Source: a virus
Reading direction: 5' to 3' (one strand)
Length of the DNA: 27,881 nucleotides
IMG/VR virus record: IMGVR_UViG_3300033571_005700
Coordinates: 1-27,881 of that record
The notes under the pieces were generated by a model. It worked only from the letters and a program-made list of their open reading frames with translations. It was not told the origin of the DNA and ran no database searches. Made by a program: the position numbers and the translations under genes. Shown here piece after piece: positions 1,717 through 27,875 of the stretch; the stretch's first letter is position 1; every line of letters starts with the position of its first letter.

Positions 1717-2955
1717 TTAAAAATCAAGTCTAACTTTAACCAAAAGTTCATTGGAAAATGTCTTTTGAGCAGGTCTACTTAATTTTGCAATCGCAACCAA
1801 TTCATTATTATTATTATACAGACCAACTGATGTAGGATATACCTTTGGATCTGTTAAAAATTCGATTTGTTTGATATCACCACGTTGACGAATTTCACCA
1901 GTAACAGCATCTGTTGTAGCTGTTTGATAACTAAATGTTGGATTATTTGTATAATTAAAATCACGGTTCTTTACACGAACAAAGTAATGACGAGACGGAA
2001 CATATTCACTTCGTCTTACTTTCATGTTATCAGCAGATGCACGAATAGCATTATATATCGCCTGTTTATATTGTTGATTTTGATTATACGTACTCGTAGT
2101 TGGAGCAGTATCACGAGCACTTGATGTAGATGGTATAGTTATATTAGCATTCGAACTTGCTGCAGAAGTCGTTAGAACTTTATTCAAAAAGTCACAACTC
2201 AAAATGACCACACCAGATTTAGGGAAAATCAATCCGATTCCAGTAGTTGGATGATATTGTGCCACTGATTTTGCACCTGTATACTCGGCGGTGCCAGCGG
2301 CTGACAATAATCCAGTGGCTAATGTCGAATAATTGTTATAATATGCTTGTCCTGTGGTTGAATCGTATTGACCCAAAACCAAGTTATAATATGCAGCAGA
2401 TCCACTTTGACTGGTGATACTAGAGTCATCAATCAATCGAACATATTCGTTACTTACATCATTTTTCAATGTCAATTGAAATTGACCAGCATCAATTCCA
2501 TCTCTAATCTTTTGAGAATTGTATGACAGTACAATAAAATCCGTTGACAACGTAACAGATGTCACAGATGTACTTCCAATTGCTTGTGATTTTATTGAAA
2601 AATTTTCACCACTATTAAGACCGTTAATATATTGTGTCCAGATTACTTTGGTAGGAGATGCTTTGATATTGGTATATTCATCGTAACTAGTACCAAATCC
2701 ATTTGAATTGCCGTAAGCAACACTCACAATAAGATCGTTGGAACTTGAAGTTGCAGCAACACTTGGATACACATCCAAATAGTAATATCCGTTATACACG
2801 TCATATCTATTTGATCCAGAAATGGCGGCTTGTAAACTGCCAGTTGCTACCGAATTTTGAGTTTGATATACCGACCCACCACTAAAAATACCGGTGGATA
2901 CCTTTGTAGATCTTCCCACTACAATATCAGACTGTTCAAATTGTTTATAGATCAT
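1717..2955 (-). CDS. Virion structural protein (tail/baseplate associated)
   Basis: A 412-residue protein beginning MIYKQFEQSDIVVGRSTKVS. The N-terminal 'K.F..SDIV.G...KVSSG' pattern and the C-terminal segment (about residues 320-412, with YFVRVKNRDFNYTNNPTFSY and a later VGLYNNNNELVAIAKLS) are patterns I associate with conserved virion proteins of T4-like marine phages. No enzymatic motif, signal peptide or membrane segment is visible. It starts 3 nt after the stop of the next upstream gene, so the two are co-transcribed and probably co-assembled. A specific position in the virion cannot be assigned from sequence alone. Confidence 0.8.
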   Translation of the reverse strand: MIYKQFEQSDIVVGRSTKVSTGIFSGGSVYQTQNSVATGSLQAAISGSNRYDVYNGYYYLDVYPSVAATSSSNDLIVSVAYGNSNGFGTSYDEYTNIKASPTKVIWTQYINGLNSGENFSIKSQAIGSTSVTSVTLSTDFIVLSYNSQKIRDGIDAGQFQLTLKNDVSNEYVRLIDDSSITSQSGSAAYYNLVLGQYDSTTGQAYYNNYSTLATGLLSAAGTAEYTGAKSVAQYHPTTGIGLIFPKSGVVILSCDFLNKVLTTSAASSNANITIPSTSSARDTAPTTSTYNQNQQYKQAIYNAIRASADNMKVRRSEYVPSRHYFVRVKNRDFNYTNNPTFSYQTATTDAVTGEIRQRGDIKQIEFLTDPKVYPTSVGLYNNNNELVAIAKLSRPAQKTFSNELLVKVRLDF

Positions 2956-3643: not shown

Positions 3644-6600
3644 TTATTGAACTGTTAAAACTCCGTTGTTTCCAGTTGATACCGATGTATTGGTTACAAT
3701 GGTACTTGTTACAGGAAGACTTTTATCTGGGTTTCCACATTCATCTACTGTATAATTTACAGTTTGTTTTGATTTAACAAAATAACCATATTTTACCCCG
3801 TCATCCGCCGTTACTTTAAATAAATCCCAATGTATAGGGTTGTGTCGGTTACCCAAGAAATTTTGAGTAGCACCACGGAAAGGTGTTCCTAATTGATATG
3901 GATCCAAGTCATATGCTTTCTTTGGAGTTATAATTAGTTTGTTCAATATTTTTGTATAGGAATATGCAGATCCGGATGGATCATAGTCCTGAACTGATGA
4001 ACTATAAGGCAACATCCAAGTAAAGTGTGGAACAGATTCGGAAACTTCTAAACTTCCTGATAAAGATCCAGTGACTGCAACATCAATATACATGATACCA
4101 AATCCCGTTGAAGAATATAATTCACTATTTGCCCACAACTCTTCATACGATGAAACGTCATTAATATAAGAATATCCGGCTTGAAAATTTTGGAAATTGT
4201 TATTAATGATCAACGACTGTGATGTTGGAACTGCTACGATAGATTTTTTATCAACAAATTGTTGATATGAACTTGAATTTTCGGTTTGATTTTGATCATT
4301 TCTCCACACGGTTATGGTTGCTGCAGAACATGAATTAATCAAATTTGAATATTCAACAGTATCTTCAACAATCAAAGATTGTATTGGTTTGTGTGGGAAT
4401 TTAATTCTTTCTAAAATTGACGGTTCAATTAAAATACCTGACAACAAAGTATTACGAGCTGCAATAACGTTACGTATTGATTCAAAAATACTTGAATCGA
4501 AATACAATTTGTAAATACTTGTAAATTCTTGATATAAAATACGTCCACTATAAGTTGGTGATCCAGCAGAATAATATGCTGCACGCATTTCTTCAAGAAG
4601 AGAATAACTTGATGAAAATTCTTGACGTGGATCTCCCAACTCACTTAATACATTTGTATCACCAAAGTATCTTAGAATTTCTTCATTTTTATTAGATACA
4701 GGTGACATAAACACACCAACCAATGGAGAGTCTGTATCAACAGTTGTCTTGGTGCTCTTTTCAAATGGAGTTAAAGCAGAAACATCCTGATGATCCTCAA
4801 TAGAAATCTTATTGTTCCACAACAAGTTTGGACCATAATTGGACATTCTATACGATTGATTTACATTGTATTCAATGAAGTTATATGGAAAAGCAGATGA
4901 TGTTTCACCTAGACAAATATTTGCGTAAGGATATAATGAACTAGTTGAATAACTTCCGTTATACATTGAACGTACAACTAAAGTTTCATCATACAAGTCA
5001 GGATTATCTATCAATGGATCATATACAGTGTTAGCTTTATTTGGAGACTTGGTTGGGATATTATACAAATAACATGTCAATGTTGCTGCACTTGATGAAT
5101 ATTGATATAGTTCAACACTAGTGTTAATTTCTCTAGGATAGTTATAAGCCAATCTCAAATATAGATTTTGTCGTATACTATCATAATCATTTTCATAATA
5201 CGAATCGAAATTATTTCCATGTTCTTTAAAATCGTCATTAGAAATTGGAACTGTCCATAAGTTGAGTTTATCAACTGAGCCACTAAACTGTGATGATCCC
5301 AATCTCAAAAATCTTACAGATCCTTTTGTGAATGCATCATTTTGATCATACTCAAGTGTTTTCGAATTGACAGACAATAATCTATTCTCACCATCCTGAT
5401 TGATTTCTACAAACAAATCATATACGGTAGGAATTTCGTTAACATTAGATGACCCAGTATAATTAGATGATGGATCGTTTCTACGAACCATAACGCTATA
5501 CACATTGCCATCAAAGATTGGCAATAAATCAGAAGAAATTTCATTACCCCCAATTTCAAACACGACCTTACCATTATCACCTAAAGATTCCTTATATGCA
5601 TAAATTCGATAATCATATGATGACGATGAATCGGGAAACTTTCTAATCAAGTCTATCTTGCTTTGTTGCGCATAAAGTTTACTGTATCTATTACTAAACG
5701 CAAACTTAAATTCAACCGTTTTGATCGTCGGATCATATGGTGTTAAAATGTAAGAGTCCGTATTTAAATGTAATAAGTATGCATTACGATCAAACGAGTA
5801 TAGTGATTGTGATACATCCGAATAGGATCCAAATTCTCTAATATTAATAATGTTGTTGGGAACGCCATAACATGCCAACAACAACTTTACACTTTCGACT
5901 GTGCCTTTTGATTTTAAGATGGCAGGCAAACTATTCAAAATTCTATTATTGATAATATTTGTTTTATCTGCAATAGAAGCGTAATTTGATCCTTGTAAAT
6001 AGTTACTTGTTAATGATACATCATTAACTGACGATTGCATCTTCCAACCAAAAGAAGAAAGCATTCCATCTAAAATCTTATTAGGAATAACAGTATCAGT
6101 TCCAAAACTGTTATATGATAACATTGGAAACTTATCAATGTAAATATAAATATTGTCAAAGTGATGACCTATCATTGACAAGAAAATTAAAAAGTCATCA
6201 TTGTTTGAATCCGTCAACAAATATGTTGGCAAATTGTTAATGAGACTGTCTCTGTTATTTGCATCATATTCGTCCGCATCATCTTCGTATGATTGTGGAA
6301 AACGATCTATGTTATTATAATAACTATTTGTCCACAAATAATACTCGTATCCATCAAATGATAATTTTATGTCATTGATTTCTTTGGTTAAAAGATCAAG
6401 TTTATCAGTAGTATATTGATCTGAGTACGAAGCAGCATTTAATTCATCAATTGAGGACTGTTTCCCCTTAATTGTCATCAATTTGTTTTTATAAATAACA
6501 ATACGAGTCTTGGCAGAAGAATAAATTACAAAGTTCTCAAAGTTAGTATAATCTACAAAAATGTTTGAAAAACGTTGTTTAAGTATCAAATCAACATCTT

Positions 6601-7921
6601 CCGTTGTAGTCACATCGGATTCAGAATAATTTACCGACAAAGAAGTTTTTTTATCGTTAACTTTTAAATTTACATTCGGTGATTTAATACTAAAAGTATT
6701 ATACGTTGGTGTAGTAGTTAAAACAATATTCTGAACAACTGGTGTTAGAGATGTATTGACTATCCAAAACGTGCTATTAACGCCAATGGTATTAGGTAGT
6801 TGATCTTGTAACTTAAACACTAATGTGCCATCAGAAAACAGTTTAAATGACAAAATCTTAATAGTTAAGTTTTGTCCGAAGTTAATTGAATTCTTCAGTG
6901 CGCCAACATATTTCTTATCGTACTCCGATTTAATATCAATAAAGTACTGTTGAATCTGTTGGTTGAAAATAGTGTACAAGTAAGAGTAACAAATCAACGT
7001 GTCGTTGTTATCAACGTCGTGAATGTTTTTTAGTCTGATCTTAATTGTCTCAGACACAATGGTGTCCAAAATTTTTGAATATTGATCTGATGTATAACAC
7101 TCTGCGTAATTTTCATACAAGAATGTTTTGATATAATCAGCAATGCCAATGAACCGAATATCTTTTGGTAAATTATTTAAAGAATTAGCTGGGATGACGA
7201 ACCCGTTATAGATTTCGTTCATCAACTTATACAATCCATCACCACCGATAATTGCATACGCTTTATCAAATGTATTTAAAACATCATCAGGAGTACCGTT
7301 AACAAAGTTCAGCAAATAGGTCTGTTTAAGATAATATTCGAAATATGGAATAATATCACGAGCCTCAATTTTTCCACTTACATAACAGTCGTACTCACTT
7401 TGAAAATCAATTTTATCTTGGTCGTTAAAATTTTCTTTTTCAAGAATCAATGAAGTTTTGATTTCTTTACGTGACGGAGAAACTTGTTTGATTACCAAAC
7501 ATTGTTTATCGTGGGCACCAACTACGTTAGATAAAAAGTTATATACAACTCGGTAACTACCATTTTGTATTCCATATCTCGCCAAATCCAATCGTGGATC
7601 CAATAAAATTTTAGCGTTCTCATATAAAGTAAATGATGGTATAAATTCATTATACGTCACTGAGATCGTGTTGTTTTGAATATCTTGATATTCAACTGTA
7701 CGAGATTGATAAGTCTCATCCTGATAAACTGGTTGCCAAAGATTAATATTTTCCTGAGCGTCAAATACTGACAACTCAATGTAATCATCAATCTGTGATC
7801 CATAAAACCTTTCAGGTGAAGGCGGAACCTTCTTCATTAAAGAAGTAATTTCAGCAGAAAAATAAGATGAACTATTTACCTGATCGACATAATCTGTCGT
7901 AGTTGGAAAAGGATATGCCAT
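3644..7921 (-). CDS. Very large baseplate/tail structural protein with LamG-like segment
   Basis: A 1425-residue protein if it starts at the ATG at 7921 (MAYPFPTTTDY). A TTG 21 nt upstream would add seven residues, but the ATG is preferred. Around residues 665-705 it has ILKSKGTVESVKLLLACYG followed by an IREFGS block. This pattern occurs in large baseplate-wedge or tail proteins of T4-like phages. Residues about 730-910 look like a concanavalin/LamG-type jelly roll (EFKFAFSNRY ... VFEIGG ... VMVRR ... LFVEI ... FLRLGSSQFSGSVDKLNLW). The gene lies downstream of gp25 and gp6, where T4 has the large wedge protein gp7, so a gp7-like wedge role is possible but is inferred from position. The C-terminal 200 residues are beta-rich with Ser/Tyr-rich stretches. 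No catalytic motif is visible. Confidence 0.8.
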   Translation of the reverse strand: MAYPFPTTTDYVDQVNSSSYFSAEITSLMKKVPPSPERFYGSQIDDYIELSVFDAQENINLWQPVYQDETYQSRTVEYQDIQNNTISVTYNEFIPSFTLYENAKILLDPRLDLARYGIQNGSYRVVYNFLSNVVGAHDKQCLVIKQVSPSRKEIKTSLILEKENFNDQDKIDFQSEYDCYVSGKIEARDIIPYFEYYLKQTYLLNFVNGTPDDVLNTFDKAYAIIGGDGLYKLMNEIYNGFVIPANSLNNLPKDIRFIGIADYIKTFLYENYAECYTSDQYSKILDTIVSETIKIRLKNIHDVDNNDTLICYSYLYTIFNQQIQQYFIDIKSEYDKKYVGALKNSINFGQNLTIKILSFKLFSDGTLVFKLQDQLPNTIGVNSTFWIVNTSLTPVVQNIVLTTTPTYNTFSIKSPNVNLKVNDKKTSLSVNYSESDVTTTEDVDLILKQRFSNIFVDYTNFENFVIYSSAKTRIVIYKNKLMTIKGKQSSIDELNAASYSDQYTTDKLDLLTKEINDIKLSFDGYEYYLWTNSYYNNIDRFPQSYEDDADEYDANNRDSLINNLPTYLLTDSNNDDFLIFLSMIGHHFDNIYIYIDKFPMLSYNSFGTDTVIPNKILDGMLSSFGWKMQSSVNDVSLTSNYLQGSNYASIADKTNIINNRILNSLPAILKSKGTVESVKLLLACYGVPNNIINIREFGSYSDVSQSLYSFDRNAYLLHLNTDSYILTPYDPTIKTVEFKFAFSNRYSKLYAQQSKIDLIRKFPDSSSSYDYRIYAYKESLGDNGKVVFEIGGNEISSDLLPIFDGNVYSVMVRRNDPSSNYTGSSNVNEIPTVYDLFVEINQDGENRLLSVNSKTLEYDQNDAFTKGSVRFLRLGSSQFSGSVDKLNLWTVPISNDDFKEHGNNFDSYYENDYDSIRQNLYLRLAYNYPREINTSVELYQYSSSAATLTCYLYNIPTKSPNKANTVYDPLIDNPDLYDETLVVRSMYNGSYSTSSLYPYANICLGETSSAFPYNFIEYNVNQSYRMSNYGPNLLWNNKISIEDHQDVSALTPFEKSTKTTVDTDSPLVGVFMSPVSNKNEEILRYFGDTNVLSELGDPRQEFSSSYSLLEEMRAAYYSAGSPTYSGRILYQEFTSIYKLYFDSSIFESIRNVIAARNTLLSGILIEPSILERIKFPHKPIQSLIVEDTVEYSNLINSCSAATITVWRNDQNQTENSSSYQQFVDKKSIVAVPTSQSLIINNNFQNFQAGYSYINDVSSYEELWANSELYSSTGFGIMYIDVAVTGSLSGSLEVSESVPHFTWMLPYSSSVQDYDPSGSAYSYTKILNKLIITPKKAYDLDPYQLGTPFRGATQNFLGNRHNPIHWDLFKVTADDGVKYGYFVKSKQTVNYTVDECGNPDKSLPVTSTIVTNTSVSTGNNGVLTVQ

Positions 7922-7938
7922 ATGACTATCAATATATA

Positions 7939-9615
7939 TCAACGAAGAAGGTTCTTAACTATTACATTTCCACCAGAACCAAAGTTTTGATTTCTTCCAC
8001 CCCCAGTTCCACCGAATGCAGTTCCATTACTTTCATTAAGTGCTTTTCTGACTGTAGCAGATTGTGAACACTTTAACTGTAATACTTCCAGATTATATGT
8101 ACCTTCACTACCTCTGCCATCAAATATGTCAATTATAGCAGTATAATTGTTTGAAGAATTAGGTTGTTGACTGATCTGTACAGATCCACGTCCGGCCCAC
8201 TTGATAGTCAAATTAGTATTGTATGAACCAACACCGTTATTTGAAAATTCACTAACAGTACGTGGCAACGTACCATGATACTGTTCATTAGAATAAGTAA
8301 CGTTGGTTCCACGCAATGTAATACGTAACGTATGATCAACATTGCCTGTAAACTTAAAGATGGTTTGTGGATTAACACAATCTTCAGAAGGTTGTTGTAC
8401 CAGAGTTGGTTTTTGACCACCTGAACATTCTTGATAGTCTTTTTGATTGTACGCGTCACGACTTGTCCAAATTATACGACCTTCGTATGAAATCAATGCA
8501 GCGACAGAATGTGGTCCACCCCAGTTCTTATAAAACAACTCAACGGTTTTCCAACCGGTGGTTAATTGAATAGTCTTTGGATGATCGCCTTGATAATTTT
8601 CTAATTGGGCAGCATACGGCGATTGAGATGTAATACTAGTTAAATCAACATAACGTACACCGTCTATTGCCATATACCCAGAATTATCTACCGCAAATTT
8701 TAATGTATACATTCCGTCGTAAGGAATATATACTTGATACTTCAAAGTATCGGACGATTCTGTCTGGAATGATTCACTTACATTTTCACTATATACACCA
8801 TAACTATACATCATTGGACTTCTACCTACGCCGTACGATGGCCATACATTATCATACTTACCATACAAGTAATATTTTTCAACACAAGAAGTAACAGACG
8901 GCAGTACCTTTTGAATAGCAAGTTGATGTACAGGTATAGTAGTTACTACCGACACCGATTTCGTTTCTGGTATTAACGCAATAGGAGATACGGGTTTTAA
9001 TACAGGCGGTGACGGATCAAAAAATTCAGCTGGTGGTGAAAATTGAATATTTGATTGACGTTCACATTGTTGTGAGGATGGTAACAAGCCAGTTTGTGCA
9101 CCCGTCAATTCCGAAGTTACCGGTGTATTTGTGGTTGAACTGTTATTTGTACCCGAACCTTGTCCTGTGGATGACGCATCTGATTGAATTGCTTCAGAAG
9201 ACTTTAGTGGCAAGTATGGAAACACTGTATTGAAATCTGATTGCGATTTTCCTTCACCAGCCTTAATACGCAAACCAACAATAATATCACGACTTGCTGA
9301 AATCAATGCATCTTTTCCAGACGAATTACTCATCTTTGATAACTCTGATGTAAGACTTGTAATTTTCGACTGAAGTGTTGCTTTTTCAGACTTTAAAGTT
9401 GAAACTACAGCATTTTCTTTAACTGGTACATCTTTAAATTCTTCAATATCAACCGTATAAATGTTGGATATCGAAGTATTTTCATACACTTCACGGGTCA
9501 ACGTTACTGCCAAATACTTTTCTGTTGAATCAACTATAACTAAGTTGCCGTATTCATCAAACAGATTAGCATATGATCCATCACGTTTAAATTGACTTTG
9601 TGTATCTGTAATCAT
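7939..9615 (-). CDS. PA14-like domain tail/adsorption protein
   Basis: A 558-residue protein. Residues 1-60 are a small beta-rich head. Residues about 65-100 form a predicted coiled coil (KSEKATLQSKITSLTSELSK). A Ser/Thr/Gly/Pro linker follows to about residue 235. The segment about 240-385 resembles a PA14 carbohydrate-binding domain: YYLYGKYDNVWPSYG, VYIPYDGMYTLKFAVDNSGY, AIDGVRYVDL, TTGWKTVELFYKNWGGPHS and a final Trp-rich strand. A further beta domain runs to about residue 515, and the tail is Gly-rich. The start ATG overlaps the stop of the upstream gene as ATGA. A virion surface, sugar-binding role is inferred from the PA14-like fold and from its place between other virion genes. Confidence 0.75.
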   Translation of the reverse strand: MITDTQSQFKRDGSYANLFDEYGNLVIVDSTEKYLAVTLTREVYENTSISNIYTVDIEEFKDVPVKENAVVSTLKSEKATLQSKITSLTSELSKMSNSSGKDALISASRDIIVGLRIKAGEGKSQSDFNTVFPYLPLKSSEAIQSDASSTGQGSGTNNSSTTNTPVTSELTGAQTGLLPSSQQCERQSNIQFSPPAEFFDPSPPVLKPVSPIALIPETKSVSVVTTIPVHQLAIQKVLPSVTSCVEKYYLYGKYDNVWPSYGVGRSPMMYSYGVYSENVSESFQTESSDTLKYQVYIPYDGMYTLKFAVDNSGYMAIDGVRYVDLTSITSQSPYAAQLENYQGDHPKTIQLTTGWKTVELFYKNWGGPHSVAALISYEGRIIWTSRDAYNQKDYQECSGGQKPTLVQQPSEDCVNPQTIFKFTGNVDHTLRITLRGTNVTYSNEQYHGTLPRTVSEFSNNGVGSYNTNLTIKWAGRGSVQISQQPNSSNNYTAIIDIFDGRGSEGTYNLEVLQLKCSQSATVRKALNESNGTAFGGTGGGRNQNFGSGGNVIVKNLLR

Positions 9616-13241: not shown

Positions 13242-13631
13242 TTAGTTATTTTCCAAAAACATTTCAATTTGTGTCGTATCGTTATTCACAGAAATTGTTA
13301 AGTTGATGTACAATCTATAAATATCAACATCTTCTTTTTTTAAGACTTTAACATCAATATTATCTACAGATGCGACAGGTATCCAAAACGTAATATCAGA
13401 AGTTAATGACTGTTTAATACGTTGTGGCAAAGTTGTATCGTTAGGATCAAATACAAAATTATTCAATGAGTGACCAAACGTAGGTTGCATACGTCGTTCA
13501 CCTTTTTTGGTGTTCAACAAATTACGAATATTTGTTTTTACCTGTTCAAGTGTATATATGGTTTGATTAAAAAAACCATTATTACCATTTTGAATAGGTA
13601 GGGTTAATCCAAGTGGATACAATGTCGTCAT
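13242..13631 (-). CDS. 25: Baseplate wedge protein, T4 gp25-like
   Basis: A 129-residue protein, matching the T4 gp25 length (132). The core motif KKGERRMQPTFGHSLNNFVF (about residues 42-61) is the characteristic 'GER...P.FG..L....F' signature of the gp25/GpW family. It is followed by the amphipathic helix and beta-hairpin typical of the family (TLPQRIKQSL, IPVASVDNIDV, YRLYINLTISV). Gp25 bridges the hub, gp6 and the sheath-initiating end of the baseplate and is conserved across contractile injection machines. It lies immediately upstream of the gp6-like gene. Confidence 0.95.
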   Translation of the reverse strand: MTTLYPLGLTLPIQNGNNGFFNQTIYTLEQVKTNIRNLLNTKKGERRMQPTFGHSLNNFVFDPNDTTLPQRIKQSLTSDITFWIPVASVDNIDVKVLKKEDVDIYRLYINLTISVNNDTTQIEMFLENN

Positions 13632-17646: not shown

Positions 17647-18687
17647 TTATCGTGCGGTGAAATATCTTTTAAAGAAGTCATCTCCCTGATTCTCCATCTT
17701 TTTTTGATCCTCCAAAGTTATTTTTGAAGATTCATTTTCATCAAGTTTTCCATCGTTGTTTGTATCGTATTTTTCAACAATTTGTTGTACTTCATTAGAC
17801 TCTTCAATCTTTGTTTCGGTTACAATTGGTTTGGTAATAATCGGTTCTGGTTCTTTTGACACAATTGGTTCTTTTGGTTCCACGTAAGAATATATGGCAT
17901 ACTCTTTACTTATTGCCATATTATATGCCAATATTAATGCTACCGCAAGTGGATCGAACACAAATATCAATATAAGTATAAACCATTTGACGACAGTATT
18001 CAAGCTTACATTCAATTCATCAGCAACAAATTTAAAGGTTTGAATATCTTTATTCGCAGCGGTATTCAACTTTATATCAGAAATTTTCTTATCAATAGAA
18101 TCAATAGTCGTCGAATATGATACAGACTTATCATTTTCAGATTTAATGTTTTTATCGGTTTGGTCAATCAATTCCATCGTCTGATCTTGAACTTGACGAA
18201 ATTGTATGGGATTTCTGGCGAGCAAAGCATTGGTATTGATTTCACTCAACCGAGCTTCTTGTGTACGTCTTAATGCTGACAATGAATCAATTCTCAATTT
18301 CACCTCTGAAATTTTAGATTGTTCTTGTTTTTTCTGATCCTCTAACAATTTAACTGTATCTAACATCATTCCATACTTGATGGCGGACTGTTGATATGCG
18401 CTTGTAAGATATCCAAAAATGCCTAAAGATGTAATCAACATGAGAATAAAAACCGCACCACATAGATATGATTTTAACATCCATTGTGATCGTTTCCAAA
18501 ACCTATACAAAAACGATGTGGCAACTAATTTGCCCAATTCCAATGAAGATGCCATTACCATGGCAGCAATAGACGCACCCGAAAACAATAACCCAATTCC
18601 CCAAATAGAGAAAAATGCAGCACATCCAGCAATGAATAATGCTGAAAAGCCAAGTAACAGATTAAAGTTGAATAAGTTTCTGTTCAT
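17647..18687 (-). CDS. Membrane coiled-coil protein with EF-hand-like calcium loop
   Basis: A 346-residue protein. Hydrophobic segments lie at about 9-31, 34-48, 73-96 and 233-258. Between the third and fourth is a long coiled-coil-like region (about 105-205, with KKQEQSKISEVKLRIDSLSALRR and repeated heptads). After the last membrane segment comes a Pro/Glu/Lys linker (EPKEPIVSKEPEPIITKPIV). It leads to DTNNDGKLDENE at 308-319, a canonical EF-hand-type loop (D-x-N-x-D-G-x-L-D-x-x-E). Proteins of this architecture occur as conserved unknowns in T4-like phages. A TATTTATA motif lies only 6 nt upstream of the ATG. Function unknown; a host-envelope role is inferred from the membrane helices. Confidence 0.75.
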   Translation of the reverse strand: MNRNLFNFNLLLGFSALFIAGCAAFFSIWGIGLLFSGASIAAMVMASSLELGKLVATSFLYRFWKRSQWMLKSYLCGAVFILMLITSLGIFGYLTSAYQQSAIKYGMMLDTVKLLEDQKKQEQSKISEVKLRIDSLSALRRTQEARLSEINTNALLARNPIQFRQVQDQTMELIDQTDKNIKSENDKSVSYSTTIDSIDKKISDIKLNTAANKDIQTFKFVADELNVSLNTVVKWFILILIFVFDPLAVALILAYNMAISKEYAIYSYVEPKEPIVSKEPEPIITKPIVTETKIEESNEVQQIVEKYDTNNDGKLDENESSKITLEDQKKMENQGDDFFKRYFTAR

Positions 18688-18693
18688 AGTATA

Positions 18694-18701
18694 TAAATAT
18701 C
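18694..18701 (-). promoter_or_regulatory. Candidate promoter motif TATTTATA
   Basis: The coding-strand octamer lies 6 nt upstream of the membrane-protein start and about a dozen bases after the T-run of the hsp20 terminator. If it is a promoter -10 element, the transcript would be nearly leaderless. It may instead be part of an AT-rich translation initiation region. Confidence 0.35.
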
Positions 18702-18712
18702 AAATAAAGTAA

Positions 18713-18741
18713 AAAACCCCCATCTATTAGGACGGGGGTAT
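18713..18741 (-). terminator. Strong intrinsic terminator after hsp20
   Basis: The stem ACCCCC/GGGGGT (18718-18723 with 18736-18741) is extended by two pairs past a mismatch and encloses an AT-rich loop. On the minus strand the GGGGGT side is followed by six T. It lies 19 nt downstream of the hsp20 stop codon. Confidence 0.92.
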
Positions 18742-18760
18742 ACATAACTTATTTGTTTAT

Positions 18761-19249
18761 TCACTTAACAGTGATCTTTTTAACATCAGGTTTAACTGGT
18801 TTAATCTTTGGTAAAGTAATGGTCAACATACCGTTTTGAAACGTTGCTTCAACCTTATCTTTGGAAATATTATCACCAAGTGTGAAACTACGACGGAAGC
18901 TTGAACGTTTCAACTCACGACGTATATATGTTCCAGTTTCTCCACTTTGCTTATCGGGGACCACCAGTTTATTACCCACAATGGTCAATACATTAGCTTC
19001 AAGTTCTACGTTTACATCAGACTTATCAAGACCGGGGATTTCCGCTTCAATTACCACTCGGTCTGAAAAATCAATAAGATTGACCTTTGGATATGATCCT
19101 TTTTCAAAAAAGTCCACACCAAAATCTTGTGTGAAACTAGGAACGTTAGCTGCGAAGAACTCATCGAAAATTCTGTCAAATGGCGTTAAGAATTCGTCAC
19201 GATGTACTGCACGAAGTGTGTTTTTATTAAACTTACTTAGACTACTCAT
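18761..19249 (-). CDS. hsp20: Small heat-shock protein (Hsp20/alpha-crystallin family)
   Basis: A 162-residue protein with an N-terminal arm (DEFLTPFDRIFDEFFA) and an alpha-crystallin domain at about 53-150 (PKVNLIDFSDRVVIEAEIPG, DVNVELEANVLTIVGNK, then the GMLTITLPK strand typical of the family at about 140-148). A C-terminal I-T-V near the end fits the I-x-I/V anchoring motif. These proteins act as ATP-independent chaperones holding unfolded proteins. Hsp20 genes are a known accessory of T4-like aquatic phages. The gene is monocistronic: it has a strong GAAAGGAA ribosome-binding site, a hairpin-rich leader upstream and a strong terminator downstream, so it is probably regulated separately from its neighbours. 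Confidence 0.96.
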   Translation of the reverse strand: MSSLSKFNKNTLRAVHRDEFLTPFDRIFDEFFAANVPSFTQDFGVDFFEKGSYPKVNLIDFSDRVVIEAEIPGLDKSDVNVELEANVLTIVGNKLVVPDKQSGETGTYIRRELKRSSFRRSFTLGDNISKDKVEATFQNGMLTITLPKIKPVKPDVKKITVK

Positions 19250-19256
19250 AATATAT

Positions 19257-19352
19257 TTTCCTTTCGTTAATAGTCCTTTTGGACCTATTATCTCTTAATC
19301 TTTTGGACTTAAGAGAGTGAAACATTTTGTCTCACCAACCAATATATATTGG
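19257..19352 (-). promoter_or_regulatory. Hairpin-rich leader of hsp20
   Basis: Four successive inverted repeats lie within about 80 nt upstream of the hsp20 Shine-Dalgarno. In transcript order they are CCAATATATATTGG (19339-19352, perfect 14-nt palindrome); GTGAGAC-N5-GTTTCAC (19317-19335, one G-U wobble, only valid for the minus-strand RNA); TCTCTTAA-N10-TTAAGAGA (19291-19316, perfect); and GTCC-AAAA-GGAC (19273-19284). The SD AAAGGAA lies just after them (about 19257-19263). A promoter/operator at the first palindrome and an RNA regulatory leader in the rest is a reasonable reading, but it is inferred. Confidence 0.6.
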
Positions 19353-19368
19353 ACAACTACAAAAAAAT

Positions 19369-22614: not shown

Positions 22615-23340
22615 TCATGTCGATTGTTTCAATTTTTTTATGATGAACCGGACTAACGCACTTCTGACAATATCGTCTTCATCAAACTTAAAAGTATGAA
22701 TACCATTTTCACGACTTTCACCATCCTCAAATGAATTCATCATTTTAAGAAATCCGCTTTTACCGTTGATATCACTTTGATCGGGGTCTCCCAATATGAA
22801 CACTTTACTAAATTCACCAATACGAGTCACTAATGTAACCAACTCTTTATACGTCATATTTTGAGCTTCATCGGCTACAATACAACGAGCATTCCAATTC
22901 AGTCCACGCAAAAATCCAATGGGAATACTATCAATACGTGCTTCTTTTTGAAGATAGTCAATACTTGCTTTATTTGTAAGTTCAGACAATTTTTCCAGAA
23001 GAGGTTGAATATACGGTGCCATTTTTTCATCAGCTTCTCCTGGCAAAAATCCAAGTTTACTATCAGAACTTTCCACCGCACTTCTTAAATAAAGAAGATC
23101 ACTTACACGTTTTTGATTCAACAACATCAACGATGCTAAAATTGTAATGTATGTTTTTGAGGTACCGGCCGGTCCACTAATAAACATCAATTTTGTATTT
23201 TTATCTAATGCAACATCTAAAAATTGTTTTTGTTTACTTGTTAATTCACGTTGGTATATTTCAATCTCATTCTTAATTTTGTTTTTTTGTGGAATTACAG
23301 GACTCTTGTCTTCACCGGCTTTATTCTTATTTTTTTTCAT
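22615..23340 (-). CDS. phoH: PhoH-family ATPase
   Basis: A 241-residue protein. The first 30 or so residues are Lys-rich, followed by the PhoH core: LTSKQKQFLD (33-42), Walker A GPAGTSKT (56-63), LPGEADEKM (99-107), Walker B CIVADEAQNMT (153-163) and LGDPDQSD (183-190). PhoH-like proteins are P-loop ATPases with RNA-helicase/ribonuclease-like features. They are very common in T4-like aquatic phages, but their role in infection is unresolved. The start overlaps the end of the upstream gene by 14 nt, so the two are coupled. Confidence 0.96.
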   Translation of the reverse strand: MKKNKNKAGEDKSPVIPQKNKIKNEIEIYQRELTSKQKQFLDVALDKNTKLMFISGPAGTSKTYITILASLMLLNQKRVSDLLYLRSAVESSDSKLGFLPGEADEKMAPYIQPLLEKLSELTNKASIDYLQKEARIDSIPIGFLRGLNWNARCIVADEAQNMTYKELVTLVTRIGEFSKVFILGDPDQSDINGKSGFLKMMNSFEDGESRENGIHTFKFDEDDIVRSALVRFIIKKLKQST

Positions 23341-25517: not shown

Positions 25518-25926
25518 TGGTGGACGTGGCGCGAGTCGAACGCGCGTCTTCAACAATCGTAATACATCAGACTACACGCTTATATACTTTTCATTACGTC
25601 AACGCACATCTAAAATATCAAACTGTGTGTGATCGTTGTTTGGAAAGATTTAAATGACAACCCCAAACATATTGTCATCGTGCCTGATAGTTTACACCCA
25701 TCACAATTATCAGACATCATTGTAATGAATGTGCAGCAACTTAGGCTGCGAGTGCCAAACCACTCTTCTTAGAGGTCTTGGAAGACTTCTTTGAAGTGAA
25801 GTTGTAGCTGATTACCTTGCTCTTCTTAGTAGCAGTTAATTTTTTGATAGATGATTTAAGAGGCCAACTATCGTCCTCTACGTGCCTAACGTACACTAAC
25901 CGTTGAATCGAAGCCAGTACACGCCC
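25518..25926 (-). ncRNA. ssrA: Transfer-messenger RNA (tmRNA), one-piece
   Basis: A full-length 409-nt tmRNA that rescues stalled ribosomes and tags nascent proteins. The 5' GGGCGTG (25926-25920) pairs with 3' CACGTCC (25528-25522), giving a 7-bp acceptor with the alanine-identity G3-U70 wobble. It is followed by A and an encoded CCA. The T arm is GCGCG-TTCGACT-CGCGC. The 5' segment CTGGCTTCGATTCAACGG resembles the conserved tmRNA D-loop region. Pseudoknot PK1 is visible: AGAGG (25879-25875) with CCTCT (25863-25859), and GATAG (25872-25868) with CTATC (25850-25846), separated by TTGG as in E. coli. Twelve nt later a GCT resume codon (25833) opens a 30-residue tag frame ending at TAA 25741. 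A further H-type pseudoknot lies at 25678-25638. Phage-borne tmRNAs are known but uncommon. Confidence 0.95.
25741..25833 (-). other. tmRNA tag-peptide reading frame
   Basis: Thirty sense codons plus TAA, starting at the GCT resume codon after PK1: Ala-Thr-Lys-Lys-Ser-Lys at the start, Val-Ile-Ser-Tyr-Asn-Phe in the middle, two SKKS-type segments, then Gly-Leu-Ala-Leu-Ala-Ala. ALAA is the classic degron recognised by ClpXP/ClpAP. The tag is several times longer than the E. coli tag of 10 encoded residues and contains eight lysines and eight serines, which is unusual. The frame is also open upstream, which produces a spurious longer ORF. The resume codon is inferred from spacing to PK1 and from the AAAAAA tract before it. 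Confidence 0.85.
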
Positions 25927-27362: not shown

Positions 27363-27436
27363 TGGAGCGGGTAGCCGGAATCGAACCGGCACATCGACCT
27401 TGGCAAGGTTGCAGGCTACCACTACATCATACCCGC
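27363..27436 (-). tRNA. tRNA-Gly (GCC)
   Basis: Cloverleaf on the minus strand. The acceptor GCGGGTA/TACCCGC is followed by T and an encoded CCA. The D arm contains AGTGGTAG, the anticodon loop is TTGCCAA (anticodon GCC, glycine), and the T arm is GCCGG-TTCGATT-CCGGC. The anticodon stem has one A-C mismatch. Confidence 0.93.
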
Positions 27437-27448
27437 GCTCTAAATATT

Positions 27449-27523
27449 TGGTGGACCGTAAGAGAATCGAACTCTTCCCTAAAGCTTGCAAAGCTCCCGT
27501 GCTACCACTATCACTAACAGCCC
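27449..27523 (-). tRNA. tRNA-Ala (TGC)
   Basis: The acceptor GGGCTGT/ACGGTCC contains the alanine-identity G3-U70 pair, followed by A and an encoded CCA. The anticodon loop TTTGCAA gives TGC (alanine). The T arm is AAGAG-TTCGATT-CTCTT. It lies 12 nt upstream of tRNA-Gly, so the two were probably co-transcribed. Confidence 0.93.
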
Positions 27524-27801
27524 ATTGTTACCCATACATAGTAACTAAAATTTCAAAAAACACAAACCGTGCTATTATACTCTAAAAAGACTTGCGGCAC
27601 ATGCGCCCAAACCCTTAAGGAATACTCCAATCGGGTGTTTGTGTTAAATTGGATGACCACGACTTGCGAATATACGAGGATTTCACGAAAACGTTCTTGA
27701 TTATCTGTTAACAGCTACATCAAATATCTATCTCGTCAACTTCAGTCTTCTCCACCTCAACTGGTGGTGTTTTATTATTCTATATCACTAATGGTCAAAT
27801 T
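27524..27801 (-). other. 278-nt spacer in the tRNA cluster without a convincing gene
   Basis: No protein-coding frame with a plausible start is seen on either strand. The spacer contains a 9-bp inverted repeat enclosing about 70 nt (27559-27645), a TATAAT hexamer in it on the minus strand (27572-27577), and a CCACC-N6-GGTGG hairpin near 27752. A further tRNA was sought and not found. Confidence 0.7.
27555..27645 (-). ncRNA. Possible structured RNA in tRNA cluster
   Basis: On the minus strand AACACAAAC (27645-27637) pairs perfectly with GTTTGTGTT (27567-27559), which is followed by more T, as in a terminator. Between the arms are an ACCC...GGGT hairpin with an inner GGA/TCC stem, and a GGCGC...GTGCC hairpin, giving a multi-branch shape. 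It has no tRNA anticodon or T-loop. It might be a small phage RNA, or spacer processed with the tRNAs. Confidence is limited because no homology can be tested here. Confidence 0.35.
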
Positions 27802-27875
27802 TGGTTGCCCGAACTGGATTTGAACCAATACAAAGAGAGTCAAAGTCTCTTGTGCTACCATTACACCATCGGGCA
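27802..27875 (-). tRNA. tRNA-Gln (TTG)
   Basis: The acceptor TGCCCGA/TCGGGCA is followed by A and an encoded CCA. The D arm contains AATGGTAG, the anticodon stem is AGAGA/TCTCT with loop CTTTGAC (anticodon TTG, glutamine), and the T arm is ATTGG-TTCAAAT-CCAGT. Confidence 0.92.

Follow-up and report, generated by a model that had tools for sequence, protein, structure and literature searches.

The window, a virus record of 27,881 bases, contains on its minus strand a segment (19250-19335) which, judging from its sequence, is a conserved cis-regulatory 5' UTR of an hsp20 gene, with the elements arranged in the order promoter, three-hairpin leader, hsp20 and terminator. Comparison of related leaders shows that the three hairpins (P1, P2 and P3) are genuine conserved RNA helices, and sequence comparisons together with predicted folds suggest that their function is most likely protein-mediated translational control. 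By analogy with IbpA, we propose that P2 and P3 may form a tandem translational operator with Hsp20 itself as the likeliest ligand, while P1 would more likely protect the transcript; we assign this reading a probability of roughly two in five. The features of the locus are as follows.

18716..18739, minus strand: intrinsic terminator 3' of hsp20
18761..19249, minus strand: hsp20 (162 aa; PF00011, E 1.4e-21; phrog_432, E 2.6e-24)
19259..19264, minus strand: Shine-Dalgarno (SD) sequence AAAGGA, predicted to be unpaired
19268..19290, minus strand: hairpin P3, with a bulged G at 19284 (or 19285), inner UCC/GGA and loop AAAA (from folding and comparison)
19291..19316, minus strand: hairpin P2, with a bulged G at 19308, inner UC/GA and loop CAAAA (from folding and comparison)
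19317..19335, minus strand: hairpin P1, 8 bp with a 3-nt loop and no bulge (from folding and covariation)
19342..19348, minus strand: TATATAT, a -10-like box belonging to a putative promoter of sigma70 type, conserved in position and sequence in relatives

The leader is located directly 5' of hsp20, in the 119 bases that separate this gene from its neighbour, and in the window the 3' end of P3 is 18 nt from the start codon. The terminator 3' of hsp20 is strong in the window, and a hairpin followed by a T-run was recognized by eye at the same place in all 40 distinct relatives printed, suggesting that hsp20 is probably its own transcription unit. Most of these relatives also have, by eye, a short conserved stretch of the GTTATGT/GTTATAT type that follows the stop codon of hsp20 and precedes the terminator (18740-18760, minus strand). 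The sequence TATAAATA on the plus strand (about 18685-18700) adjoins the terminator and has similar counterparts in many relatives; it presumably resembles a T4 late promoter, and would run antisense to hsp20. The baseplate wedge (13242-13631), PhoH (22615-23340), tmRNA and tRNA genes found in the window fit a T4-like myovirus. A blastn search with 1,601 bases around the leader matched no phage record. The phage tmRNA gene is complete (25518-25926, minus strand) and has a long predicted tag of 30 aa, ATKKSKVISYNFTSKKSSKTSKKSGLALAA; tRNA genes for Gly, Ala and Gln are located past it (27363-27875, minus strand). The window also carries an ORF of 1432 aa with a TTG start and without a PHROG match (3644-7942, minus strand).

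The structure of the leader was compared with that of 80 relatives from IMG/VR, whose hsp20 identity ranges from 96 to 56%; two leaders located at contig ends (L019 and L061) were excluded from the leader set. The segment 19250-19336 folds into three hairpins with -22.4 kcal/mol (z -4.48), and none of 200 shuffled sequences folded equally well. When 27 leaders were aligned with MAFFT on sequence only, 96.3% of the 614 helix cells paired, a level reached by none of 500 shuffles, and both sides of the pair are changed in 88 cells; a control with slid partners on the same alignment gave 37-39% pairing. With 39 distinct leaders, in an alignment fitted to the covariance model and so biased towards it, pairing was found in 95.8% of 926 helix cells and both-side changes in 21 of the 26 pairs. 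The stems are thus conserved through compensatory changes in related phage leaders, the comparison that had been proposed in the earlier note. In P1, all eight pairs show both-side changes among the 39 leaders, its sequence being free to vary while pairing is kept. The helix cells contain 46 G-U compared to 12 A-C combinations, indicating that the selected strand is the sense RNA strand. Together with the compensatory changes, this bears out the suggestion, made earlier from a single repeat completed by a G-U wobble, that selection acts at the RNA level; the wobble itself is present in P1, inside GUGAGACA/UGUUUCAC.

A covariance model built from nine close leaders (R1) recovered the leader from 80 of 81 sources, including those with an hsp20 identity as low as 56% (L055 being the source missed), and gave no match outside the hsp20 leader within 497 kb. 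A broader model applied to 16 phage contigs (up to 116 kb) gave one hsp20 match in each contig and two additional matches at chance level. On this comparison, the element appears confined to hsp20 in the records searched.

The earlier note had described four consecutive hairpins. Four inverted repeats are present on the minus strand (19267-19352), and three of them correspond to RNA hairpins (P1-P3). The first repeat, CCAATATATATTGG (19339-19352), overlaps the TATATAT box and forms a perfect DNA palindrome on it, and a hairpin of at least 5 bp is possible at this site in 6 of the 39 distinct leaders. Because of its position on the -10-like box and this low count, it is probably outside the RNA, and the four-hairpin reading was dropped. 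The -35 element is weak in the window, many relatives have TTGAAT or TTGACA at promoter spacing from TATATAT, and a promoter pattern search of the window gave no match. Judged from the sequence, transcription starting 6-7 nt past the box would begin at the foot of P1.

The AAAGGA sequence follows the repeats as stated earlier, and the absence of a pairing that hides it is supported by folding predictions. With the leader alone, the unpaired probability of the window SD is 0.87 at 10 °C and 0.97 at 37 °C, and the mean for the window clade (n = 39) is 0.91 and 0.93 at these temperatures. Folding of 19240-19368 gave a structure better than chance (z -3.27, with 1 of 200 shuffles equally good). 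In folding at several temperatures, as suggested in the earlier note, the SD in the leader is predicted to be open across 10-50 °C; masking through an upstream anti-SD was dropped for this reason. After addition of 60 nt of coding sequence, the predicted openness in the window clade (n = 39) is 0.62 at 10 °C, 0.71 at 37 °C and 0.74 at 42 °C. We also considered an anti-SD conserved at the beginning of the coding sequence and dropped it, since shuffled coding sequences gave a similar value at 37 °C (0.67 versus 0.71 observed). The motif U(U/C)GCU is present in none of the 39 distinct window-clade leaders, and an Rfam scan of the window leader with E values up to 10 produced no ROSE and no fourU match, just two chance matches. 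Folding and sequence comparison point to a ROSE-like array from which the thermometer hairpin is missing, rather than a classical thermometer.

Both P2 and P3 contain a bulged G, a feature absent from the earlier note. In each of the 39 distinct leaders whose leader region is complete, P3 has an unpaired 5'-side G followed by pyrimidines, and the same 5'-side bulged G is found in P2 of all except L013, L015 and L017, which have G.G below the bulge. This G is kept while stem sequences differ completely between subgroups, as illustrated by the stems CUCUUAA.G.UC(CAAAA)GA.UUAAGAG of L001, AUAGU.G.CUC(GAGU)GAG.GCUAU of L056 and GUUCGU.G.CUAC(UUU)GUAG.GCGAAU of L055. In a set of 52 non-redundant phage hsp20 leaders, drawn as representatives from 177 by a 6-mer similarity cut, 36 have a 5' bulged G in a hairpin of 8 bp or more, against a mean of 2.2 in shuffled sequences. 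Bulges of A, C and U were found in 11, 2 and 3 of these leaders (5.2, 2.5 and 3.2 in shuffles), placing C and U at background, and a 3'-side bulged G in 8 (1.5 in shuffles). As a control, 244 other ORF leaders from the same loci, which are mechanical ORFs and in many cases lack a real gene start, yielded 29 with a bulged-G hairpin and none with two. In the window, P2 and P3 have A-U and G-C below the bulge and U-A above it, giving the core N-G-UC and not the U-G-C of ROSE, while a ROSE-type core surrounds the bulge in P2 of L055 and the L056 group from the same gene family. CsrA-type sites with GGA in the loop were dropped as a candidate, as inspection by eye showed that GGA is not retained among relatives.

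Related leaders were also found in marine T4-like phages. From 160 marine loci, after skipping two without upstream sequence (L174 and L186) and merging identical leaders, 129 distinct hsp20 leaders were obtained. Each of these combines a bulged-G hairpin located upstream with U(U/C)GCU close to the SD, and in 124 a bulged-G hairpin covers the SD. The upstream hairpins have a U-G pair below the bulge in 105 cases and inner letters CC or CU in 126, suggesting that the ROSE core is repeated there. The predicted openness of the SD in this group (n = 129) is 0.20 at 10 °C, 0.28 at 37 °C and 0.39 at 50 °C. Rfam ROSE_3 matched 3 of 19 loci, all below the gathering threshold (L185, E 3.4e-4; L100, 2.3e-3; L242, 3.9e-3), and neither of the cyanophage loci tried. 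From their predicted folds and sequences, the marine leaders look like ROSE-type thermometers, in contrast to the window leader with its predicted open SD. The earlier idea of an RNA thermosensor, taken as SD masking, is thus not supported for the window leader, but seems apt for its marine relatives. Four marine loci (L240, L243, L255 and L260) have three consecutive bulged-G hairpins with the last one over the SD, comparable to E. coli ibpA.

Bulged-G hairpins with compensatory changes also precede hsp20 in the cyanophages S-E7, S-SM1 and Syn19 and in the Methylophilales phage Melnitz-3, and the cyanophage motif TGCCTTCGGGG has one exact site per genome, at hsp20, in three complete cyanophage genomes. 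Seven of nine tabulated distant loci have a clear bulged G (L088 and L090 from this distant group of 11 were omitted due to their similarity to L089 and L091), and in L083 and L084 the bulged base is A in place of G. The pattern is absent from the Vibrio phages PWH3a-P1 and IBT_VpB-34 and from the fecal contigs L101 and L102; in L099 and L102, the scan listed other bulged-G or bulged-A stems away from the expected place. In a Halobacteriovorax MAG contig, possibly of phage origin (L264, about 1830-1950, plus strand), inspection by eye shows hsp20 together with a TTGACA promoter, a tandem of two bulged-purine hairpins and an AGGAG SD that is free. In S-SM1, an antisense 'heat shock protein' ORF annotated across the hsp20 leader (L097, 507-644, minus strand) is probably an annotation artefact. 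A sub-threshold Rfam manA match is located 5' of hsp20 in L087 (1010-1201, plus strand; E 2.3e-6, 38 bits versus 55.2).

In the ROSE-like leaders described in the available parts of two papers (PMC11182007, PMC3669281), the number of hairpins is 2-4, and the SD region has U(U/C)GCU together with a bulged G. A crystal structure (PMC11342760, seen in part) contains a U.G and a C-G pair along with the bulged G. ROSE-G has been described as a further SD-masking class (PMC12857270, in the portion available). The window leader resembles the ROSE families (RF00435, RF01832 ROSE_2 and RF02523 ROSE_3; hspA/ibpA) as a small heat-shock 5' UTR with an array of bulged-G hairpins, and its three covarying hairpins fit the number reported for ROSE-like leaders. 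It differs from them in the absence of U(U/C)GCU and of an SD hairpin throughout the window clade, the N-G-UC core, the lack of an Rfam match and the position of the bulged G of P2 and P3, which is not opposite the SD. The ibpA leader of E. coli K-12, which is covered by Rfam ROSE_2, has three bulged-G hairpins and that of ibpB two, the last being over the SD in both. Among eight plasmid-borne bacterial hsp20/ibpA leaders, an SD hairpin with a bulged G is present in seven, six reach the ROSE gathering score, and in four an upstream hairpin has a bulged G with two pyrimidines after it.

Few phage thermometers are counted in PMC11182007, from which the term 'hsp20' is absent; the phage examples cited there are lambda cIII, SP-beta blyA and a gut-phage sigma70 fourU. 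These share with the window a structured phage 5' leader, but they involve other genes and motifs, with the ribosome site masked or alternatively folded. The text of PMC3827213 contains none of the terms promoter, untranslated, regulat-, upstream or thermometer. The marine T4-like leaders have in common with the window a bulged-G hairpin before hsp20 and compensatory changes; they differ by a second bulged-G hairpin that masks the SD and by an IbpA-like Hsp20, mostly with Arg at the position of R93.

In the accessible sections of PMC10474464, IbpA is reported to bind its own structured 5' UTR and to repress translation; R93 is irreplaceable for RNA binding by the E. coli protein, R97, K98 and an aromatic residue at position 34 also matter, and RNA structure is mentioned without a particular site for IbpA. 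At the corresponding positions, all 81 window-clade Hsp20s have Ser (93), Arg (97), Ser (98) and Tyr (34), and the 129 marine proteins have Arg (121) or Lys (8) at position 93. The window clade therefore shares with IbpA autorepression, as described for E. coli, Cedecea and Vibrio in the same sections, the bulged-G hairpin leader and the conserved Y34 and R97, but has Ser in place of R93 and K98, which disfavours a simple transfer of the IbpA contact. Across the sequences compared, R93 tracks the SD-masking hairpin and not the bulged-G hairpins as such.

Stable hairpins accompanied by an open SD, together with an unpaired G that is conserved beside the short helix closing the loop, have the look of a protein operator, and the occurrence of the element at hsp20 only, in the records searched, suggests an autogenous ligand. 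P2 and P3 may be ROSE-type bulged-G hairpins retained without the SD-masking hairpin, whose absence would make simple SD melting impossible for the window RNA. A ligand bound to P2 and P3, 15-18 nt 5' of the start codon, would hinder binding of the 30S subunit; the end of P3, 18 nt from the start codon, is presumably at the edge of the 30S footprint. With Hsp20 as the likeliest ligand, this would create negative feedback, which could be relieved when misfolded clients titrate Hsp20, as proposed for E. coli IbpA acting on ibpA. Predicted to lie at or next to the mRNA 5' end, with a sequence free to vary, P1 would more likely serve in transcript protection. Against this reading are the N-G-UC core of the window, Ser at positions 93 and 98 and the lower SD openness with coding sequence added, although shuffled coding sequences give a similar openness.

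The same hairpins might instead act in mRNA stability or processing, with the 5'-terminal hairpin and the following stems blocking 5'-dependent decay and the bulged Gs being incidental or nuclease marks. The start of P1 about 6-7 nt past the -10-like box and its kept pairing despite sequence variation are consistent with this role, and there is a precedent in hairpin I of Pseudomonas ibpA, which has been proposed as an mRNA stabiliser in the part of PMC3669281 available; according to the same paper, what the 5' hairpins do in ROSE leaders is incompletely understood. However, stabilisation leaves unexplained both the specificity for hsp20 and the retention of the 5'-side bulged G in P2 and P3 despite stem turnover, and we regard it as unlikely. 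An operator for another phage or host protein, such as an RNA-binding regulator or a phage translational repressor, would explain why bulged-G hairpins persist in Hsp20 clades without the R93 of IbpA. A general repressor should have more targets, yet in the 16 contigs the search located the element just at hsp20, as it did the single exact TGCCTTCGGGG site in each of the three cyanophage genomes, and this possibility is ranked after stabilisation.

A classical RNA thermometer in the window leader, with the SD masked in the cold and open in the warm, would be in keeping with the marine relatives, given their SD hairpins (124/129), the invariant U(U/C)GCU (129/129), an SD openness that rises with temperature and the three sub-threshold ROSE_3 matches. 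The window leader itself has an SD predicted to be open from 10 to 50 °C, lacks U(U/C)GCU in 39 of 39 leaders and shows no conserved anti-SD, and the openness with coding sequence (0.62-0.74) changes little with temperature and is like that of shuffled coding at 37 °C, making such a thermometer rather improbable here. The DNA-level operator array raised in the earlier note, or a cruciform controlling transcription, could draw on the inverted repeats adjoining the promoter and on the perfect dyad over the -10-like box. This dyad is not conserved (6/39), and the strand-specific preference for G-U over A-C points to selection on the sense RNA, so that control at the DNA level is extremely improbable.

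The marine result suggests that ROSE-type leaders are common on chaperone genes of T4-like phages, a subject on which we found no paper among those listed by our literature search. If P2 and P3 are indeed an operator, the bulged-G hairpin, and not SD melting, might be the ancestral working unit of small-heat-shock leaders, read by the chaperone and occurring in tandem both in phages and in the ROSE leaders of bacteria, and the window clade would have a chaperone-sensing operator without a thermometer, a ROSE array no longer coupled to temperature; we offer this proposal tentatively, as it is doubtful on present comparisons. In the window clade, the hairpins are kept and the SD mask appears to have been lost, so that two functions are naturally separated, and this clade provides a direct test case for the binding of a small heat-shock protein to bulged-G hairpins.
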